Shown: positions 32,735 to 60,065 of the stretch, in pieces
Position numbering within the stretch: the first letter of the stretch is position 1
Layout: each line of letters opens with the position of its first letter
From: Candidatus Nitrosocosmicus agrestis
Lineage (GTDB): Archaea > Thermoproteota > Nitrososphaeria > Nitrososphaerales > Nitrososphaeraceae
Direction: 5' to 3'
Length of the DNA stretch: 64,000 nucleotides
Assembly (NCBI RefSeq): GCF_008389435.1
Contig: NZ_VUYS01000002.1
Location: 62,001 to 126,000, forward strand
Program-made: the position numbers and the translations under genes
Notes under the pieces: generated by a model
Told to the model about the DNA's origin: nothing
Database searches by the model: none
What the model saw: only the letters and a program-made list of their open reading frames with translations

Positions 32735-32953
32735 ATGATGGGAGATGTGAATAATGGTACAAATGCTCCTATCATAGGTAAGACTATTCAAGATATCAAT
32801 GATAATAGTTCCTCAGCATTGGTTATTCCAAAAGAGTTTGCTAATGAATTGCAAATTGAAAACTCCAAAGTGTCAATGTCTTTGATCAAGGATTTAGATG
32901 GAAATAAACATCTGTTAGTTTCAAAAGCTTATGTAGAGATCGTTTTGGAGTAG
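32735..32953 (+). CDS. AbrB/MazE-like small DNA-binding protein
   Basis: 72 residues from ATG 32735 (a second ATG follows directly); an AT box about 24 bases upstream fits a leaderless start. After a polar N-terminus the segment SALVIPKEFANELQIENSKV with a hydrophobic strand pair (MSLIKDL, KHLLVSKAYVEIVL) is the swapped-hairpin AbrB fold, normally a dimeric DNA-binding domain for transition-state regulators or antitoxins. No toxin gene adjoins it. A broken paralogue sits 1.9 kb upstream. Confidence 0.7.
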   Translation: MMGDVNNGTNAPIIGKTIQDINDNSSSALVIPKEFANELQIENSKVSMSLIKDLDGNKHLLVSKAYVEIVLE

Positions 32954-34031: not shown

Positions 34032-34292
34032 TCAGAGAATCTTAGATACAGTATCTTTTATTTCGATAGCAATTTCCTTACCAACTTTATCAGTTGTTTG
34101 GCTAACATAATATTCAACCAGATCTTGGACTATCAATTCGGTTACACCATCTAATGCAGCCCTAACTGCAGAAACCTGTTGGACTATTTCGGGGTATCCC
34201 CTATCATCATCAAGCATCTTATTTATTGCTCTTACATGTCCTTCTATTCTTGCCAATCTTCTCTTTAACTCTGGTTTCTTGTGATGGGTCAA
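34032..34292 (-). CDS. CsoR/FrmR-family repressor lacking the usual metal ligands
   Basis: 86 residues from ATG 34292. The all-helical DUF156 fold is clear: RRLARIEGHVRAINKML, then PEIVQQVSAVRAALDGV and a C-terminal helix. CsoR and FrmR proteins bind operator DNA as tetramers and release it on copper, nickel or aldehyde binding through Cys and His. Here the first ligand position is Tyr33 and the later His-x3-Cys is replaced by Asp57 and Tyr, so no Cys is left in the protein. The inducer must differ. It is divergent from the DMT exporter, with a CsoR-type operator between. Confidence 0.85.
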   Translation of the reverse strand: MTHHKKPELKRRLARIEGHVRAINKMLDDDRGYPEIVQQVSAVRAALDGVTELIVQDLVEYYVSQTTDKVGKEIAIEIKDTVSKIL

Positions 34293-34335
34293 TTGCTTTA
34301 GAGTAGTGTCAAACCTTAATTAAGGTATTTTTAGT

Positions 34336-34359
34336 TATCCTATACTGGGGGATAGGATA
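34336..34359. promoter_or_regulatory. CsoR/RcnR-type operator
   Basis: TATCCTAT-ACTGGGGG-ATAGGATA: eight-base inverted arms around a five-G tract, the layout of known CsoR/RcnR operators. It lies directly upstream of the TATA box (ATATATAT, about 24 bases before GTG 34385), so it probably represses the exporter gene and perhaps the regulator itself. Confidence 0.7.
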
Positions 34360-34384
34360 TATATATCAAAGATCAACTAAAGCT

Positions 34385-35260
34385 GTGAGGCAAGAATACT
34401 ATTATTTATTGTTCTCAGCAGTTTTATATGGTTCAATTTCTACAGTTGCCAAACCGGCACTGACGAATATTCATCCCATTCTTCTAAGTTCGGTGGTATA
34501 TTTGATTATGGGTCTTTCGTTACTAGTCGTTAATGTGTTATCCAGAAACAATTATTCAATAAATGCAAAGTCTTTTGGCTTAATCGTTCTTGTTGCACTA
34601 TTTGGTGGAACGCTTGGACCAATATCGTATTTTATGGGATTGAGCTTAACTAATGCTTCCTTCGCCTCTATTCTTATAAATGCAGAATTCATGTTTACCA
34701 TAATTTTAGCCATTTTCATACTAAAGGAGAGAGTAACTTCGTTTACCGTTGGTGGAATTATATGTATTATTATTGGTCTTTTAACTCTTCATTTAAATGA
34801 ATTACAGGCTTTTACAGGATTTCAAAATCAATATTTAGTTGGTAATATTTTGATTGTTTTTTCGACTTTATTTTGGGCGTCAGATAACACTATCAGCAAA
34901 TTAATTTTAGATAAAGGCACACCCATACTAAATCTATTATACTTAAAGTCACTAATCGGCGGAGCAATTTCACTCTTGATAGTTATATTCTTGAATATTT
35001 CCTTTGACATTGCTATTTTAGATATACCAATGTTACTCTTTTTGAGTCTAGGTGGATTCGCCGGATCTTTGTTCTTATTTATGGTAGGACTCAGAAGGGT
35101 GGGAGCAATAAGATCCGTTATGATATTTGCCACCTCGTCATTTTTCGGGTTGATATTTGCTACAACAGTATTAGGGGAACGTAATGATATGCTAAAGTTA
35201 GGTATATCATTAGGATTTATGTTTGTAGGAATTTTCTTAATTACAAGGGAAAATGCTTAA
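34385..35260 (+). CDS. DMT/EamA family transporter
   Basis: 291 residues from GTG 34385. Ten hydrophobic helices form two EamA halves; GPISYFMGLSLTNASFASIL and FIILKERV-type segments (here FILKERVTS) end the first half, and the second closes with FATTVLGERND. EamA proteins export amino acids or other metabolites, or may move divalent cations. The substrate is unknown, but the CsoR-like repressor and its operator suggest an inducible efflux or metal-linked role. Confidence 0.88.
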   Translation: MRQEYYYLLFSAVLYGSISTVAKPALTNIHPILLSSVVYLIMGLSLLVVNVLSRNNYSINAKSFGLIVLVALFGGTLGPISYFMGLSLTNASFASILINAEFMFTIILAIFILKERVTSFTVGGIICIIIGLLTLHLNELQAFTGFQNQYLVGNILIVFSTLFWASDNTISKLILDKGTPILNLLYLKSLIGGAISLLIVIFLNISFDIAILDIPMLLFLSLGGFAGSLFLFMVGLRRVGAIRSVMIFATSSFFGLIFATTVLGERNDMLKLGISLGFMFVGIFLITRENA

Positions 35261-35731: not shown

Positions 35732-36736
35732 TTAATCACTATTTGTAGGATGAAATTTTTCTATTTGGATAGTAGAATGTGTAATTTTGAATCTGTTTTC
35801 AAGCACAGAATTGATATCATGTAGAACTTGATAAGAACTGCTTGTATCCATTACAACTATATGAGCAGATAATGCGTGAATTCCAGAAGATATGCTCCAA
35901 ATATGTAAGTCAAATACGCCTGTAACACCTTTTGTCTGCAATAAAGATTGTTGAATCATTTCATATGATATATTTGACGGAACGCCTTCCATTAATATAT
36001 GAACAGATTTCTTTAACAAACTCCATAACCGTGGTAAAATAAATATTGCTAATCCTATACTTAAAATAGGATCTATAATCTTCAGGTTTGTTGCAGCTAT
36101 GATTATCCCACCAACGATAACTCCTACTGAGCCTATTGTATCGCTTAATAGCTCCAGTCGAGCACCTTTCATGTTTAAATCTTCAATCTCATCATTGTTT
36201 TTAATTTTGTCAGGATGAGGATCCATTGAGATATCAGAATGTTCTACTGTTGAGGAGGAAAACAGATGTTTTGTATGCTCATCGTTTTTAGTACCATGAT
36301 TATGTATGTGTTCTCCGCGGAGAAAATACATTCCAGCAATATTTATAAGTAATCCAACCACAGCCACTACAATCATAGGTAAACTCTGTATTTCCGTAGG
36401 TTCAAAAAAGCGTCTATAGGCTTCGTAAATAATAATTATCGACAATAATGATAATATTATGCTATTAACAAGGGAAGCAAGTATCTCGGTTCTAAAAAAA
36501 CCAAAAGTATGAATCGGAGTCGCTTCCTTTTTGCTGTAAATTGCAGCTATTAAAGCTATACCTATTCCAAAAGTATCAGTAAACATATGACCTGCATCAG
36601 CAAGTAGAGCCAAACTACCTGTATAAAATCCAGCAATGACTTCTATAACTAGATAAGTAGAGATTAGAATTAGAACTATCCTTAATTTCTTAATTTTTGT
36701 ATTCGTCTTAATTATTTCTATAGTGTTAGAATGCAA
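35732..36736 (-). CDS. cation diffusion facilitator (Zn/Co/Cd exporter)
   Basis: 334 residues from ATG 36736. Six helices with HMFTDTFGIGIAL (helix 2, H-x3-D) and LELLSDTIGSVGV (helix 5, here D with Leu/Glu before it) giving the transport site. A His-rich loop (GEHIHNHGTKNDEHTKH) lies near residues 140-160. The C-terminal ferredoxin-like domain contains VFDLHIWSISSGIHALSAH. CDF proteins exchange Zn2+, Cd2+ or Co2+ for protons and export the metal from the cytosol. Adjacent to the copper oxidase gene set but with its own promoter. Confidence 0.92.
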   Translation of the reverse strand: MHSNTIEIIKTNTKIKKLRIVLILISTYLVIEVIAGFYTGSLALLADAGHMFTDTFGIGIALIAAIYSKKEATPIHTFGFFRTEILASLVNSIILSLLSIIIIYEAYRRFFEPTEIQSLPMIVVAVVGLLINIAGMYFLRGEHIHNHGTKNDEHTKHLFSSSTVEHSDISMDPHPDKIKNNDEIEDLNMKGARLELLSDTIGSVGVIVGGIIIAATNLKIIDPILSIGLAIFILPRLWSLLKKSVHILMEGVPSNISYEMIQQSLLQTKGVTGVFDLHIWSISSGIHALSAHIVVMDTSSSYQVLHDINSVLENRFKITHSTIQIEKFHPTNSD

Positions 36737-36871: not shown

Positions 36872-38110
36872 CTATGATCTTCCTTTCACTTTAAAATATC
36901 CCATCCACCCCAAATCAGAAAATTCATTGATATGAGAATGGAACATGTATTGACCAGTATATGGATAATTGAATTCAATAATTCCTCTATCTCCTTGTCC
37001 CAATGTAACAATGTCATTAGTCATAGGAGCATCTTTAGATGTACCACTTGGAATATATTTATACAAATTTCCATGCAAATGAAATGAATTTACCTGGTCA
37101 AATTCTAGCATATTGATTAGGTATATCCTATAGTTGGTATTTTGTTGAATGGGTATGGGATTTTCCACATAATCAAACGCTTTTCCATTTACTGTGTATA
37201 CCTCGTTTACGTGTTCAAATGCTTGAGGCATGTAATCTTCTTCATATTCCTCTGGTGTTGGAATTCGGCTAGGTCCTACTCCTTCTTTTTCATAATCTAG
37301 ATCATATCCATTCATCATCATGACCATTTCGGTCATATTTTGTCTTGGTGTTTTTGGATCTATGATCAATGCACCATAGAGTCCTTTGTTTATGTGCTGA
37401 TCAATAGGCGTTACATGACAATGATATGGATATACACCATAGGGACCTGCTTTAAAAATATATGTAAAGCTTTGTCCTGGTTTTATGTATCCACCCGGCC
37501 CATCAACCCCATCCATATCTCCAGGATGAATGGAATGCATATGCATTGAATGAGTATGATTATTCTCCGGTGGATTGATTACTTTTATTTTTACAATGTC
37601 TCCTTCAGTTACTCTTATTGTGGGACCTGGAATAGTGCCGTTAAATGTCCATGCAGGACTAAAAACCAATCCATTACTAGCAATAGGTATAGAGCTATTC
37701 TCATTTATGATTAGTGTAAATTCTCTAGTTGTTTGATTTTTATTGATGTTGTTACTACTATTTTTGGTATCAGCAATTATATGACCACAGTTAAAAAATG
37801 TTAAATACTCTAAGGAAGTTGGCCTCTTGTCAGTGTCGGTAGTGCAATTTTTAAGTTTGTCGTATTCGGATATTGAAAGAGATTTATTATTATCATTATC
37901 ATTAGATTCGCCAACAATATTAGAGTTGTTTTGGTTAAGGATATTTTTTAATTTTATCATGTCGGTGTAAGTTGAATTTTCGGTTCCAGTTTTACTGAGA
38001 TTAGTAATGGAAGCAAAAACAGAATTACAAGGAATTACTATTACAAAAACCAACAGGATTGCAAACAGTGTAATATCACACTGTTTCGCATCCGGGATGT
38101 GATTTCTCAT
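36872..38110 (-). CDS. two-domain multicopper oxidase, exported
   Basis: 412 residues from ATG 38110. A signal peptide (residues about 14-33) and an Asn/Ser-rich, low-complexity region to residue 120 precede two cupredoxin domains. Domain 1: HSMHMHSIHPGDMDG and YPYHCHVTPIDQHINKG (type 1 copper Cys with His ligands). Domain 2: SFHLHGNLYK and YMFHSHINEFSDLGWMG (trinuclear-site His). This is the thaumarchaeal two-domain type with the type 1 site in domain 1. It oxidises a metal ion or small molecule with O2, or acts like NirK; the substrate is unresolved. Last gene of the 40328-36872 cluster. Confidence 0.9.
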   Translation of the reverse strand: MRNHIPDAKQCDITLFAILLVFVIVIPCNSVFASITNLSKTGTENSTYTDMIKLKNILNQNNSNIVGESNDNDNNKSLSISEYDKLKNCTTDTDKRPTSLEYLTFFNCGHIIADTKNSSNNINKNQTTREFTLIINENSSIPIASNGLVFSPAWTFNGTIPGPTIRVTEGDIVKIKVINPPENNHTHSMHMHSIHPGDMDGVDGPGGYIKPGQSFTYIFKAGPYGVYPYHCHVTPIDQHINKGLYGALIIDPKTPRQNMTEMVMMMNGYDLDYEKEGVGPSRIPTPEEYEEDYMPQAFEHVNEVYTVNGKAFDYVENPIPIQQNTNYRIYLINMLEFDQVNSFHLHGNLYKYIPSGTSKDAPMTNDIVTLGQGDRGIIEFNYPYTGQYMFHSHINEFSDLGWMGYFKVKGRS

Positions 38111-38151: not shown

Positions 38152-39024
38152 TTATTTGTATGGCAATTTAGATCCAATATCTTCTAATGCCGATGTAATC
38201 ATATCAGTAGTCATACTTGGTCCAGCAGTCCATACTAACATTGTTTGCTCCGATCCGGTATCTCGAGCTATACCTCTCAGGTCCTTAAATGAATATGTGC
38301 TTTCAATTGAAAATCCTTTTTCTGTGAAATCCTTTGTATAGTCGTCAATATCTTTCGTAGGTACCATAAATACACCGACGCTTTCTACATTAGCATTTGG
38401 ATTAGTGTTTAATTTGTTTGGCTGATCAATTGCCTTGATATCGCCTCTCATCACAAAACCCTTTTGCACAGCTTCTTGATCTATATCGGGACTATAGTAA
38501 CCAAAGTTTCCAACGGTATTAAAAACCATAGGGTTTGATGCAGAGTATTCCGGCAGGACACCACTATCAAATAGACTTTCATCGTTGTTGATTATTATTC
38601 TGTGCTCGTGACTAACATCGCCACTAAACCATATAACATTGGTACCTTTGTTAATAATTACATTTTGTGGTAGGAATGATTGTTCAATGAACCTATTCTC
38701 TTTTGCTTCGCCGTTACCGTGATGCGCCTCATCTGGAATAAGTATGAATAAATTTTTAATATCATTTCCTAGAACTGCAGTTTTGGTGTCAAATATATGC
38801 TTGGCGTCTATGTTGGGAGTGTCACTAGACAAATTCCCATTTTCACTCTGGGAATGTGCAATCAAAGTATGACTTGGGATTATGAGGATAACGGTTAATG
38901 AAAATATCAATAAAAAGATTCTCAAACCTGTGCAGACGTGACTAGAATCCTTCTCTAATGTCGAGAGGTTATTAAATAAACAGCAGAAAGCGCTTATGTT
39001 TTTGATACTCAAAGTATTATTCAT
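38152..39024 (-). CDS. exported cupredoxin-fold protein, type 1 Cys missing
   Basis: 290 residues from ATG 39024, 41 bases before the oxidase gene and co-oriented. A signal peptide (IFLLIFSLTVILIIPSH) leads to a plastocyanin-like domain: QNVIINKGTNVIWFSGDVSH, then FNTVGNFGYYSPDIDQEA. The position of the copper Cys reads Tyr-Ser-Pro instead of Cys-x-Pro, so a standard blue-copper site cannot form; HEH and HHGNG groups could still bind metal. The C-terminal 90 residues form an extra alpha/beta domain (DDYTKDFTEKGFSIESTYSF). Probably a partner of the oxidase. Confidence 0.78.
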   Translation of the reverse strand: MNNTLSIKNISAFCCLFNNLSTLEKDSSHVCTGLRIFLLIFSLTVILIIPSHTLIAHSQSENGNLSSDTPNIDAKHIFDTKTAVLGNDIKNLFILIPDEAHHGNGEAKENRFIEQSFLPQNVIINKGTNVIWFSGDVSHEHRIIINNDESLFDSGVLPEYSASNPMVFNTVGNFGYYSPDIDQEAVQKGFVMRGDIKAIDQPNKLNTNPNANVESVGVFMVPTKDIDDYTKDFTEKGFSIESTYSFKDLRGIARDTGSEQTMLVWTAGPSMTTDMITSALEDIGSKLPYK

Positions 39025-57833: not shown

Positions 57834-60065
57834 TTAAATTTTAAATTTCCTCAGTAGTAATGAATTACCAAAAACAAGTGAATCGCTTACCACCCATCCT
57901 AATGCTGCTAACGCCGGTGTCAGTATTAGGGAATTTGTAGACCCGAATAATATCCCAGCCGCAATAGGAATGGTAATAGAGTTATAAGCAAAAGAAATCG
58001 TCAGGTTTTGTTTTATTTTTTTCAGCGAAAATGCAGATAGTTGTAGAATGAATGAGATGTCAGATAAATTATTTTTTATCAAAATAATATGTCCTGCTTC
58101 CTTTGCGACATCAGTTCCTGATCCGATTGCTATTCCAACATCGGCTTGAATTAAAGCTGGTGCATCGTTAATACCATCTCCAATCATTGCTACAACGCGG
58201 TTTTCCTTCTCCTGTAGATACTTAATTTTTTCTACCTTTTGTTGTGGCAACATTTCTGAAAATATGTCAACTATTCCTATTTGTTGGGCAATTGCAAGAG
58301 TAGTCCTTTCGTTATCTCCACTCAGAAGAATTACTTTCTTTCCCATAGATCTAATTTTTTTAACTATGGATAAGGCATCCTCTCTTATCATATCTGCTAC
58401 TGCTATGATACCAATAAAATTTCCTTCCACAAAAATTGTTACTACGGTTTTGCCTTCTGATTCTAAATCCGTAATTCTTTGTTCAAATTCTATTGGAATT
58501 TTTGACTTAAACCTCGATATGGAATTTTCATTGATTTTAGGAGTATTTTGTGTATTTGAGCGTGGACTGGTAATCAATATCTGTTTTTGGTTATATTTAG
58601 CTATAATTCCATGACCAGTCATTGTATTGAATTCATTAACTTCAAAGAGGGATATCTTTCTCTCGTTAGCCTTTTTCACTATTGCTCTTGCTATTGGATG
58701 TTCCGATTTAATTTCCGTAGAAGCAGCCATCTGCAACAAATGGTGTTCATCAAATCCAGAAGATGGAATAACATTTGTTACTTCAGGTTTACCCTTAGTT
58801 AATGTGCCTGTTTTATCAAATACCACTGTATCAACAGACGCCAATCTCTCAAGATATATTCCACCTTTAACTATGATACCTTGTTTGGCAGCTTTACCAA
58901 TGGCTAAGGATATCACCATTGGGGTCGCAATGCCTAAGGCGCATGGACATGATACTACCAGTATGGTGGCAAATACTGTTACACTGAATTGAATTGGCGC
59001 TTGCACTACTAATAACCAATAAAGAGAAGAGATAATGGCTATTGAGAACACAATAGGGATAAAATACTTGGCACATCTGTCTGCAATCTTTTGAATAGAA
59101 GGTTTGTTTGTTTTTGCCTTTGAGACTAATTCTATTATACTTGCTAATACTGTTTGACTTCCGACACTCGTTGCTTTAACATGAACATATCCATTTTTGT
59201 TTATGGTACCTCCAATGACCTTGTCTTTTACTCTTTTTTCAACTGGAATTGATTCACCTGTAATCATTGATTCATCTATTGAGGTTTCACCTAAAGTAAC
59301 AATGCCGTCAGTTGCAATGTTTTCGCCAGGTTTAACGATAAAAATATCATTTACCTTTAAATTTTCAATAGTAATAGTTTCCTGTTTTCCATTATCTCTT
59401 ATTACAATAGTCTTTTGTGGTTTTAGGGCAACCAGACTCTTAATAGATTCAGAAGTTGTTCTTAATACCTTACTTTCAACAAATTCACCTATTGTAAATA
59501 TTGTCATGACAGAGGCAGATGCTTCAAAAAATCTAATATCTTGATTTGTCAAAAGTGCAATAACACTATAGCCATATGCAACTGACGTGCTTAATACCAC
59601 CAAGGCGTCTACGGTAAAGTTTTTTCTCTTTCTGATAGAATCGTAAAAGCGTTTGTAAAATGGTCTACCTAGTAGAATCTGTACAGGAGTAGCTAAAAGT
59701 AGTAAAATAAAACCGAGAATAAAACTATCTCCGACTAAATTATAGAACTCTAGTAATTCTAGAATTACTAAAGGAATGGTTAATGTTAACCCTACTAATA
59801 TGAGGATCTTTGCTTCTTTGTTTTCTTTTCTTTCAATTTTCTCAATAATTTTTAGGTCTTCTAAATCTGACTTTCCGTTTGTTGATCCTATTGATGATAA
59901 TCTTTGGGAAAGTTCGGAATTGCTAGAACAACAGCTGCAACTATCCTCTGCTGCTTCTACTTCTACTTCTTTTTGCAGTTTTATATTGCAATTGATATTT
60001 TCCATCTCTTTATCTCTTAGATTTTCTATTGGATTTTCAACTGAGAGATTAAATTTCCTTTTCAT
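57834..60065 (-). CDS. P1B-type heavy-metal ATPase
   Basis: 743 residues from ATG 60065. No HMA domain; instead a Cys cluster (DSCSCCSSN) near residues 42-50 could deliver metal. Core motifs: TGES (actuator), CPC in VVSCPCALGIATPM (helix 6), DKTGTLTKG (phosphorylation), SEHPIARAIV and MIGDGINDAPAL. Helix 7 has FAYNSITIPIAAG. Helix 8 (GWVVSDSLVFGNSL) differs from the Met-Ser-Ser of Cu+ pumps, so cadmium, lead or zinc is as likely as copper. It follows the CmtR-like repressor by 10 bases, one operon. Confidence 0.92.
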   Translation of the reverse strand: MKRKFNLSVENPIENLRDKEMENINCNIKLQKEVEVEAAEDSCSCCSSNSELSQRLSSIGSTNGKSDLEDLKIIEKIERKENKEAKILILVGLTLTIPLVILELLEFYNLVGDSFILGFILLLLATPVQILLGRPFYKRFYDSIRKRKNFTVDALVVLSTSVAYGYSVIALLTNQDIRFFEASASVMTIFTIGEFVESKVLRTTSESIKSLVALKPQKTIVIRDNGKQETITIENLKVNDIFIVKPGENIATDGIVTLGETSIDESMITGESIPVEKRVKDKVIGGTINKNGYVHVKATSVGSQTVLASIIELVSKAKTNKPSIQKIADRCAKYFIPIVFSIAIISSLYWLLVVQAPIQFSVTVFATILVVSCPCALGIATPMVISLAIGKAAKQGIIVKGGIYLERLASVDTVVFDKTGTLTKGKPEVTNVIPSSGFDEHHLLQMAASTEIKSEHPIARAIVKKANERKISLFEVNEFNTMTGHGIIAKYNQKQILITSPRSNTQNTPKINENSISRFKSKIPIEFEQRITDLESEGKTVVTIFVEGNFIGIIAVADMIREDALSIVKKIRSMGKKVILLSGDNERTTLAIAQQIGIVDIFSEMLPQQKVEKIKYLQEKENRVVAMIGDGINDAPALIQADVGIAIGSGTDVAKEAGHIILIKNNLSDISFILQLSAFSLKKIKQNLTISFAYNSITIPIAAGILFGSTNSLILTPALAALGWVVSDSLVFGNSLLLRKFKI

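Follow-up and report, generated by a model that had tools for sequence, protein, structure and literature searches.

A CsoR/RcnR-family repressor without a single cysteine lies divergently beside an EamA/DMT-family exporter in a 64,000-nucleotide stretch of the Candidatus Nitrosocosmicus agrestis genome (the window), with a candidate G-tract operator between the two genes. The family is known, and the fold, the DNA side, and the type of operator are ordinary; what is new, to judge from sequence, is that a clade with coherent partner genes has fixed the loss of its family cysteine. We read the unit as a thiol-free repressor that sits on its operator and would be relieved by a divalent metal, with EamA as part of an efflux response, and we give this reading, in which the repression, the metal, its ligands, and the cargo of EamA are all proposed, a probability of about 0.5. 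Its signal is probably a metal (or another stress), sensed through a chemistry not yet described for the family. The features of the unit and its surroundings are collected in Table 1.

Table 1. Positions in the window of the repressor/EamA unit and of neighboring features
Feature	Position	Strand	Description
72-aa ORF, opposite side of the unit	32735-32953		weak MazE-like match, E = 0.0027, below cut-off
CsoR/RcnR-family repressor, Cys-free (Tyr-type)	34032-34292	minus	86 aa, TTG start, PF02583 match
Candidate operator, TATCCTATACTGGGGGATAGGATA	34336-34359	no strand	perfect 8-nt arms, five-G tract
Candidate TATA box of eamA, ATATATATAT	34357-34366	plus	sequence
EamA/DMT-family exporter	34385-35260	plus	291 aa, GTG start, PF00892
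CDF (cation efflux) transporter beyond EamA	35732-36736	minus	Pfam match
Multicopper oxidase	36872-38110	minus	
Protein without Pfam match	38152-39024	minus	
P1B ATPase with ordinary CPC	about 57876-59882	minus	about 35% identity with the GAC type

The repressor matches the Pfam family Trns_repr_metal (PF02583) with 70.4 bits (E = 1.8e-19; cut-off, 22.8), and no cysteine occurs in its ORF translation, which bears out the description of a CsoR-family repressor without Cys in an earlier note on this DNA. No second PF02583 protein was found in the 3.22-Mb genome of the window (G000; 98.9% complete), and the closest named matches to the repressor, at 93% and 92% identity over the full length, are from Candidatus Nitrosocosmicus MAGs. 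An AlphaFold2 model (pLDDT, 92.9) has the usual three-helix fold (helices 6 to 28, 33 to 65, and 69 to 85), and its top fold matches in the PDB were InrS, CstR, CsoR, and FrmR. By homology, the protein is a member of the CsoR/RcnR (DUF156) family, though the cysteine stated for that family fails. It scored below the cut-offs of the NCBIfam models for RcnR (43 bits; cut-off, 138) and FrmR (34.9 bits; cut-off, 133).

The columns of the sensor pocket were set by the InrS and CsoR PDB chains, with helix 2 aligned free of gaps. In this alignment, the repressor reads Tyr33-Leu58-Tyr62 where the CsoR-type ligands are Cys-His-Cys; Tyr33 occupies the column of CsoR Cys36 and FrmR Cys35, and Tyr62 that of CsoR Cys65. 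The ligand positions had earlier been given as Tyr, Asp, and Tyr. Both tyrosines stand, but the second residue is Leu58 and Asp57 is off by one, because the "DH" of helix 2 in InrS and CsoR pairs with "DL" (Asp57-Leu58) in the repressor. We ruled out Asp57 as a substitute ligand at position Y, the His column, since the alignment is gap-free and an Asp there is ordinary in Cys-type relatives: the residue ahead of the His column is Asp in all 8 of the canonical thaumarchaeal ones and in 33 of the 52 bacterial control rows (the best 52 of 55; see below). Each known subgroup signature is replaced. The Cys-His-Cys of the copper-responsive CsoR subgroup is Tyr-Leu-Tyr; against Cys35 and His64 of RcnR, the repressor has Tyr33 and Tyr62; against Pro2 and Cys35 of FrmR, Thr2 and Tyr33; against C38, H63, and C67 of NreA, Tyr33, Leu58, and Tyr62; and position X, where a Cys is the stated DUF156-wide feature, holds Tyr33.

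The N terminus of the repressor reads Thr2-His3-His4. HH stretches also occur at the N terminus of Cys-keeping members in the bacterial control sample, which weakens the notion of Thr-His-His as a clade-specific invention and suggests that it may simply be inherited. Position 61 varies with the partner gene: it is Tyr in all six aligned repressors that diverge from EamA, and among the other 30 aligned rows it is His in 29 and Gly in one (L016). In G408, the EamA-divergent copy has Tyr61 and the copies beside ATPases have His61, as does the copy in G401. Given this split, the window's repressor may respond to a signal that differs, in level or in kind, from the one that the pump-linked copies sense.

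Other CsoR-like genes with Tyr at position X, which the earlier note had proposed as a check, were found. Tyr33, Asp57, Leu58, Arg12, Gln38, and Gln39 do not vary among the 36 aligned clade rows, several of which come from one genome (those of L042 and L017 are from the same contig). Thr2-His3-His4 is present in 35 of the 36, the exception being a row that begins later (L023), and Arg15 is kept in at least 90% (Ser in L024). Most clade rows were obtained with query peptides containing the Tyr and are biased toward it; that bias does not affect a Pfam search of 398 genomes sampled from the phylum. There, 19 genomes had a PF02583 match: 10 of the Tyr type (G000, G326, G029, G053, G180, G209, G268, G303, G342, and G378), 8 of the Cys-His-Cys type, which all belong to a single, different thaumarchaeal family and have Cys at position X in 8 of 8, and 1 with a broken fragment (G364). 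As a bacterial control, we searched 120 genomes of the phylum around the Rubrivivax genome of L048, of which 44 matched, at 55 places. Among the best 52 of these 55 by score (the 3 weakest were left out), Cys was at position X in 52 of 52 and His at position Y in 46; of the non-His rows, two are shifted by one in the alignment (L138 and L153), one was not reached (L114), and three are without His (L141, L147, and L148). In this sample, then, loss of the His has precedents and loss of the Cys does not.

A tree of 73 short rows unites the Tyr rows as one clade, with support of 98/92; this tree does not settle the place of the clade among the other DUF156 groups, and long branches meet beside it. 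On the sequences compared, the repressor belongs to a thaumarchaeal clade of Nitrosocosmicus, Nitrosotalea, and kin. Estimates for the window's repressor against five relatives (dN of 0.04 to 0.13; dS of 1.8 to 2.3 or saturated) indicate strong purifying selection on the Tyr-type repressor. Some copies are broken. In Nitrosocosmicus WA-bin7 (L023), an EamA gene with frame breaks adjoins an intact repressor frame, and L047 and L020 hold repressor fragments with frame breaks or stops; these may represent repeated loss of the unit or assembly errors.

The operator that the earlier note placed between the repressor and the exporter, with a five-G tract and eight-base arms, is where it was described. 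Its arms (34336 to 34343 and 34352 to 34359) are perfectly inverted, with 8 nt between them. Allowing up to three mismatches, the 24-mer has one site in the window (expected, 0.00 in 100 shuffles) and one in the whole 3.22-Mb genome. A search of that genome for a regulon yielded this one full operator only, and arms-only matches with up to three mismatches numbered 51, little above the 46 of the reversed control. The first three bases of the candidate TATA box are the last three of the operator, and 18 bases separate the box from the GTG of eamA, an arrangement which suggests that the eamA transcript is probably leaderless and that its promoter would be covered by the operator.

The residues expected to face DNA are likewise retained: Arg12, Arg15, and Gln39 of the repressor match NreA R17, R20, and Q44 in the alignment, and the operator ends TATCC...G-tract...GGATA are kept in clade loci. 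The Nitrosotalea-type site TATCCTAGGGGGGAGGATA has the same base in 15 of 19 positions as TATCCTCTCGGGGGGGATA, the published operator of the Ni-responsive Mesorhizobium NreA (PMC12724321, in excerpt), and the window's 24-mer has the same ends as both. These conserved features, together with the replaced pocket, support the earlier view that the predicted DNA-binding half is kept while the sensor is changed.

In 18 of 29 loci, a strict motif, composed after sight of the window and Nitrosotalea sites, lies upstream of the partner gene at a distance of 120 bp or less; the other 11 lack it. It occurs at no other place in 203 kb and in none of 200 shuffles, which preserve base content only. A relaxed motif (2 mismatches, run of 3) is present in 24 of the 29 loci and at 15 places elsewhere, compared with a shuffle mean of 0.28 and maximum of 3. 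The 29 loci exclude L014 and L017, which share contigs with L031 and L042; duplicates of places already counted; loci with an unclear partner or with a partner start beyond the available sequence (L012, L016, L025, L027 to L029, L039, L064, and L073); the broken copies L020 and L047; and EamA genes without an adjoining repressor. By eye, the operator is weak or lacking in L024, L061, L035, and L026, and L021 has perfect arms without a G-tract. Similar sites at the Cys-type canonical loci (L002 to L005 and L007 to L009) suggest that the motif belongs to the family and not to the Tyr clade alone.

The partner genes of the clade point to metal transport. In Nitrosotalea-type genomes, the repressor follows a membrane protein of 213 to 246 aa with the motif HMSAPDH (or close to it) and a His-rich loop. 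We term this partner carrier NicO-like by profile comparison only: a profile of five carriers and seven more distant relatives matched, with 97.5% probability (E = 7.9e-12), a second profile built from eight thaumarchaeal matches to NicO (five over the Pfam cut-off and three below). Two of the carrier proteins had no Pfam match at 1e-3, and at E ≤ 10 the carrier gave only Mntp (0.051), FUSC_2 (0.0076), and weaker matches, all below cut-off; Pfam NicO was absent for three carriers at E ≤ 10, a level at which the HMMER filters drop most weak matches. Bridging relatives gave no useful Pfam match, and the AlphaFold model of the carrier is poor (pLDDT, 46.8). The NicO-like carrier is the partner in 20 of the 29 operator-count loci. 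Its profile had 14 matches in the 398 genomes, and 7 of these, including the six strongest, fall in the 10 Tyr-type genomes, two of them carrying stops (G268 and G378). One further genome, G338, has a good carrier match and no repressor match; the other six matches are distant.

P1B ATPases are a second class of partner, and those beside the Tyr-type clade lack the CPC motif at 10 of 10 distinct places (GAC in 9 and SPA in 1), whereas ATPases beside Cys-containing thaumarchaeal CsoRs read ACPCAL in 8 of 8. In the GAC type, TM4 reads AGACGLAVGTP in place of ACPCAL (L012, L020, L026, L041, L062, L069, L166, L167, and L169), and in L016 it reads TSPAEL; the count covers visible TM4 segments, without the partial ATPases of L025/L063, L028, and L034 or the fragment with which L166 begins. 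The GAC-ATPase of L020 adjoins a broken repressor. Near the ATPase C terminus, in the usual metal-site region, IHVSSEL or IHVASEL occurs in L012, L020, L025, L026, and L041. The occurrence of CPC-free ATPases at some of the same loci suggests that sensor and pump may have changed their metal chemistry together. We found no GAC-type ATPase in the window's own genome, whose two P1B ATPases are both CPC, and no NicO-like carrier there with either the carrier profile or PF03824.

Cation efflux genes also accompany the clade: a CDF gene lies near the repressor in L030, L037, L040, L041, L045, and L046. The window has one as well, which lies in a minus-strand row beside the unit with the multicopper oxidase and the protein without Pfam match; it carries no operator, and a query with this CDF found none in the available DNA of other Nitrosocosmicus loci. 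L030 (4189 to 4767, plus), L041 (4583 to 5161, plus), and L020 (298 to 879, minus) encode a further membrane protein, about 192 aa long (cluster c10) and without a Pfam match over cut-off, which follows the CDF gene in the first two; its EGGEQ (L030 and L020) is reminiscent of iron or manganese permeases.

The window's exporter matches EamA (PF00892) in two stretches (E = 4.4e-32; 111.6 bits; cut-off, 28.2), and 92 bp separate its start from that of the divergent repressor. Within the genus, the 6 of 15 genomes with the repressor are the same 6 that have an EamA at least 49% identical to the window's, kinship being ignored; the remaining nine are without repressor and close EamA, and three of them have an EamA of 35 to 37%. 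The divergent pair occurs at seven places in five genomes, once with a broken EamA (G409 C27). EamA also stands beside pumps. In G401, a GAC-ATPase gene is followed after about 22 bp by EamA (40% identity), in an apparent ATPase-EamA operon, with the repressor 0.7 kb on; G408 has a repressor/EamA pair (49%) and, after 0.5 kb, a GAC-ATPase and a second repressor; and in G415 (L076), the order is EamA (38%), operator, NicO-like gene, and repressor. The simplest view of these arrangements is that EamA takes part in the same efflux response. An EamA gene of G401 without an adjoining repressor (L081) carries the operator with one mismatch, which points to control in trans; no operator was found at the other EamA genes without an adjoining repressor, L080 (G326; 50 to 52%) and L083 to L086.

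Family membership, the lost Cys/His pocket, the conserved clade, the conserved operator, and the partner genes we take as established at the sequence level. In the mechanism that we propose, the repressor would bind the G-tract palindrome between the genes and block the eamA promoter, and perhaps its own. A toxic cation that accumulates, most likely Ni(II) or Co(II), with Zn, Mn, or Fe as less probable candidates, would bind a thiol-free site composed of the N-terminal Thr-His-His and Tyr33 at the dimer interface, and the metal-bound repressor would release DNA, allowing EamA to be expressed as part of an efflux response. Ni and Co are preferred because of the NicO-like partner and the NreA-like operator. 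With Met removed, the Thr-His-His-Lys of the repressor has the form NH2-X-X-His, which is known to hold Ni and Cu. A bolder version, which we put forward tentatively as possible, is that regulator and pump both gave up soft Cys ligands (Cys to Tyr, and CPC to GAC or SPA), so that a hard or borderline cation would be sensed by a Thr-His-His clamp with Tyr33 and exported by a non-thiol path, the Tyr61 sub-branch being tuned to EamA.

According to the earlier note, the signal of the repressor must be neither Cu nor formaldehyde. The Cys-His-Cys site for Cu(I) and the Pro2/Cys35 site of FrmR are indeed absent, but "must" is too strong for a conclusion drawn from missing sites. That the repressor is nevertheless an ordinary sensor of Cu(I) or formaldehyde, with its ligands elsewhere, appears highly improbable. 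The multicopper oxidase near the unit would suit such a sensor, but the repressor has no Cys, no His at position Y, and no Pro2, and CPC is missing from the ATPases of the clade and present in those beside Cys-type CsoRs. The NicO-like carrier, the P1B ATPase, and EamA next to an ATPase in two genomes point to a metal again, probably not Cu(I) and not sensed through a thiol. Alternatively, the sensor may have left metals, with an organic molecule or stress compound lodged in the Tyr/Leu-lined pocket and exported by EamA, and with the pump neighbors marking an older role. We consider this unlikely, if serious: EamA/DMT carriers mostly move organic molecules and metabolites, every classical ligand is gone, and EamA-divergent copies have Tyr61 where others have His, but Tyr33, Asp57, and Leu58 are identical in copies whose neighbors are NicO-like carriers or P1B ATPases, EamA adjoins a GAC-ATPase in G401 and G408, and the operator is common to EamA and pump loci.

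That company of EamA and GAC-ATPases in two genomes would also fit export of a metal chelator or chelator-metal complex rather than the bare ion, with the repressor sensing the metal or the complex. There is a precedent in CntI of P. aeruginosa, a DMT/EamA exporter of the metallophore pseudopaline, but the cnt operon is under zinc via Zur and responds to metal shortage, which is the opposite logic (PMC5719457, in excerpt), and we regard this route as decidedly unlikely. The repressor could, finally, be a dead sensor that silences eamA constitutively or answers only to its own level or to a partner. Alanine changes in the NreA pocket do yield super-repressors (PMC12724321, in excerpt); against this stand a pocket invariant over 36 rows and several kinds of partner gene, strong purifying selection, and repeated pairing with efflux genes, and we allow it a slim chance. 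Relief of the thiol-free repressor by a divalent metal is the reading that we prefer.

A clade with Tyr fixed at position X, strongly selected and with its operator retained, offers a natural way to ask whether allostery in DUF156 proteins depends on a thiol at all. Ammonia-oxidizing archaea depend on copper enzymes, and the repressor-EamA unit would give those of soil a metal-efflux switch. In the open-licence PMC literature, including excerpts of PMC5016687, PMC12724321, PMC7055735, and PMC10318464, we found no description of a Cys-free DUF156 clade, although subscription papers may have one, and no study of the CsoR of these archaea.

Comparison with characterized members shows which parts of the repressor have precedent. 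CstR, which responds to persulfide, has the same fold (7mq1 and others); CstR needs thiols, and the repressor is without them. The best PDB match is InrS, a cyanobacterial Ni sensor (5fmn; sequence E = 3.1e-11, fold E = 5.2e-4), whose Cys53, His78, and Cys82 are all replaced. RcnR shares the family and an N-terminal His (His3 in RcnR; His3/His4 in the repressor), and its Cys35 and His64 are absent. The N terminus of the repressor is about two residues shorter, and its His3/His4 presumably do not fall in the RcnR His3 column. Excerpts of PMC7055735 list the N-terminal amine, His3, Glu34, Cys35, Glu63, and His64 as the Co(II) ligands of RcnR and place the InrS ligand His21 at the N terminus; such N-terminal ligands have precedent in the family. 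The Cys at position X is described as conserved in all DUF156 proteins, or in all characterized members, and as common to every known effector site (PMC5016687, in excerpt). FrmR, alike in family and fold, needs Pro2 and Cys35 to sense formaldehyde, both absent here, and FrmR H60L, the same change as Leu58 of the window's repressor, no longer retains Zn (PMC5016687, in excerpt).

NreA resembles the repressor in its TATCC...G-tract...GGATA operator and its DNA-side Arg/Arg/Gln, and it controls Ni efflux genes from a leaderless promoter (PMC12724321, in excerpt). According to the same excerpt, Ala changes at R17, R20, Q44, and K91 result in mostly or completely constitutive expression, while C38A, H63A, and C67A repress strongly and are no longer relieved by Ni; H66 is peripheral to the pocket and needed in part. 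The repressor differs in having Tyr33, Leu58, and Tyr62 (and Tyr61) where NreA needs C38, H63, and C67 (and, partly, H66). Since the NreA pocket mutants stay repressing under Ni, such a pocket would not, on bacterial experience, respond to metal; this, with the loss of Zn from FrmR H60L, is why we hold our preferred reading at about even odds. NreA is partnered with Ni efflux genes, and the Tyr-type repressors with EamA, the NicO-like carrier, and the GAC-ATPase.
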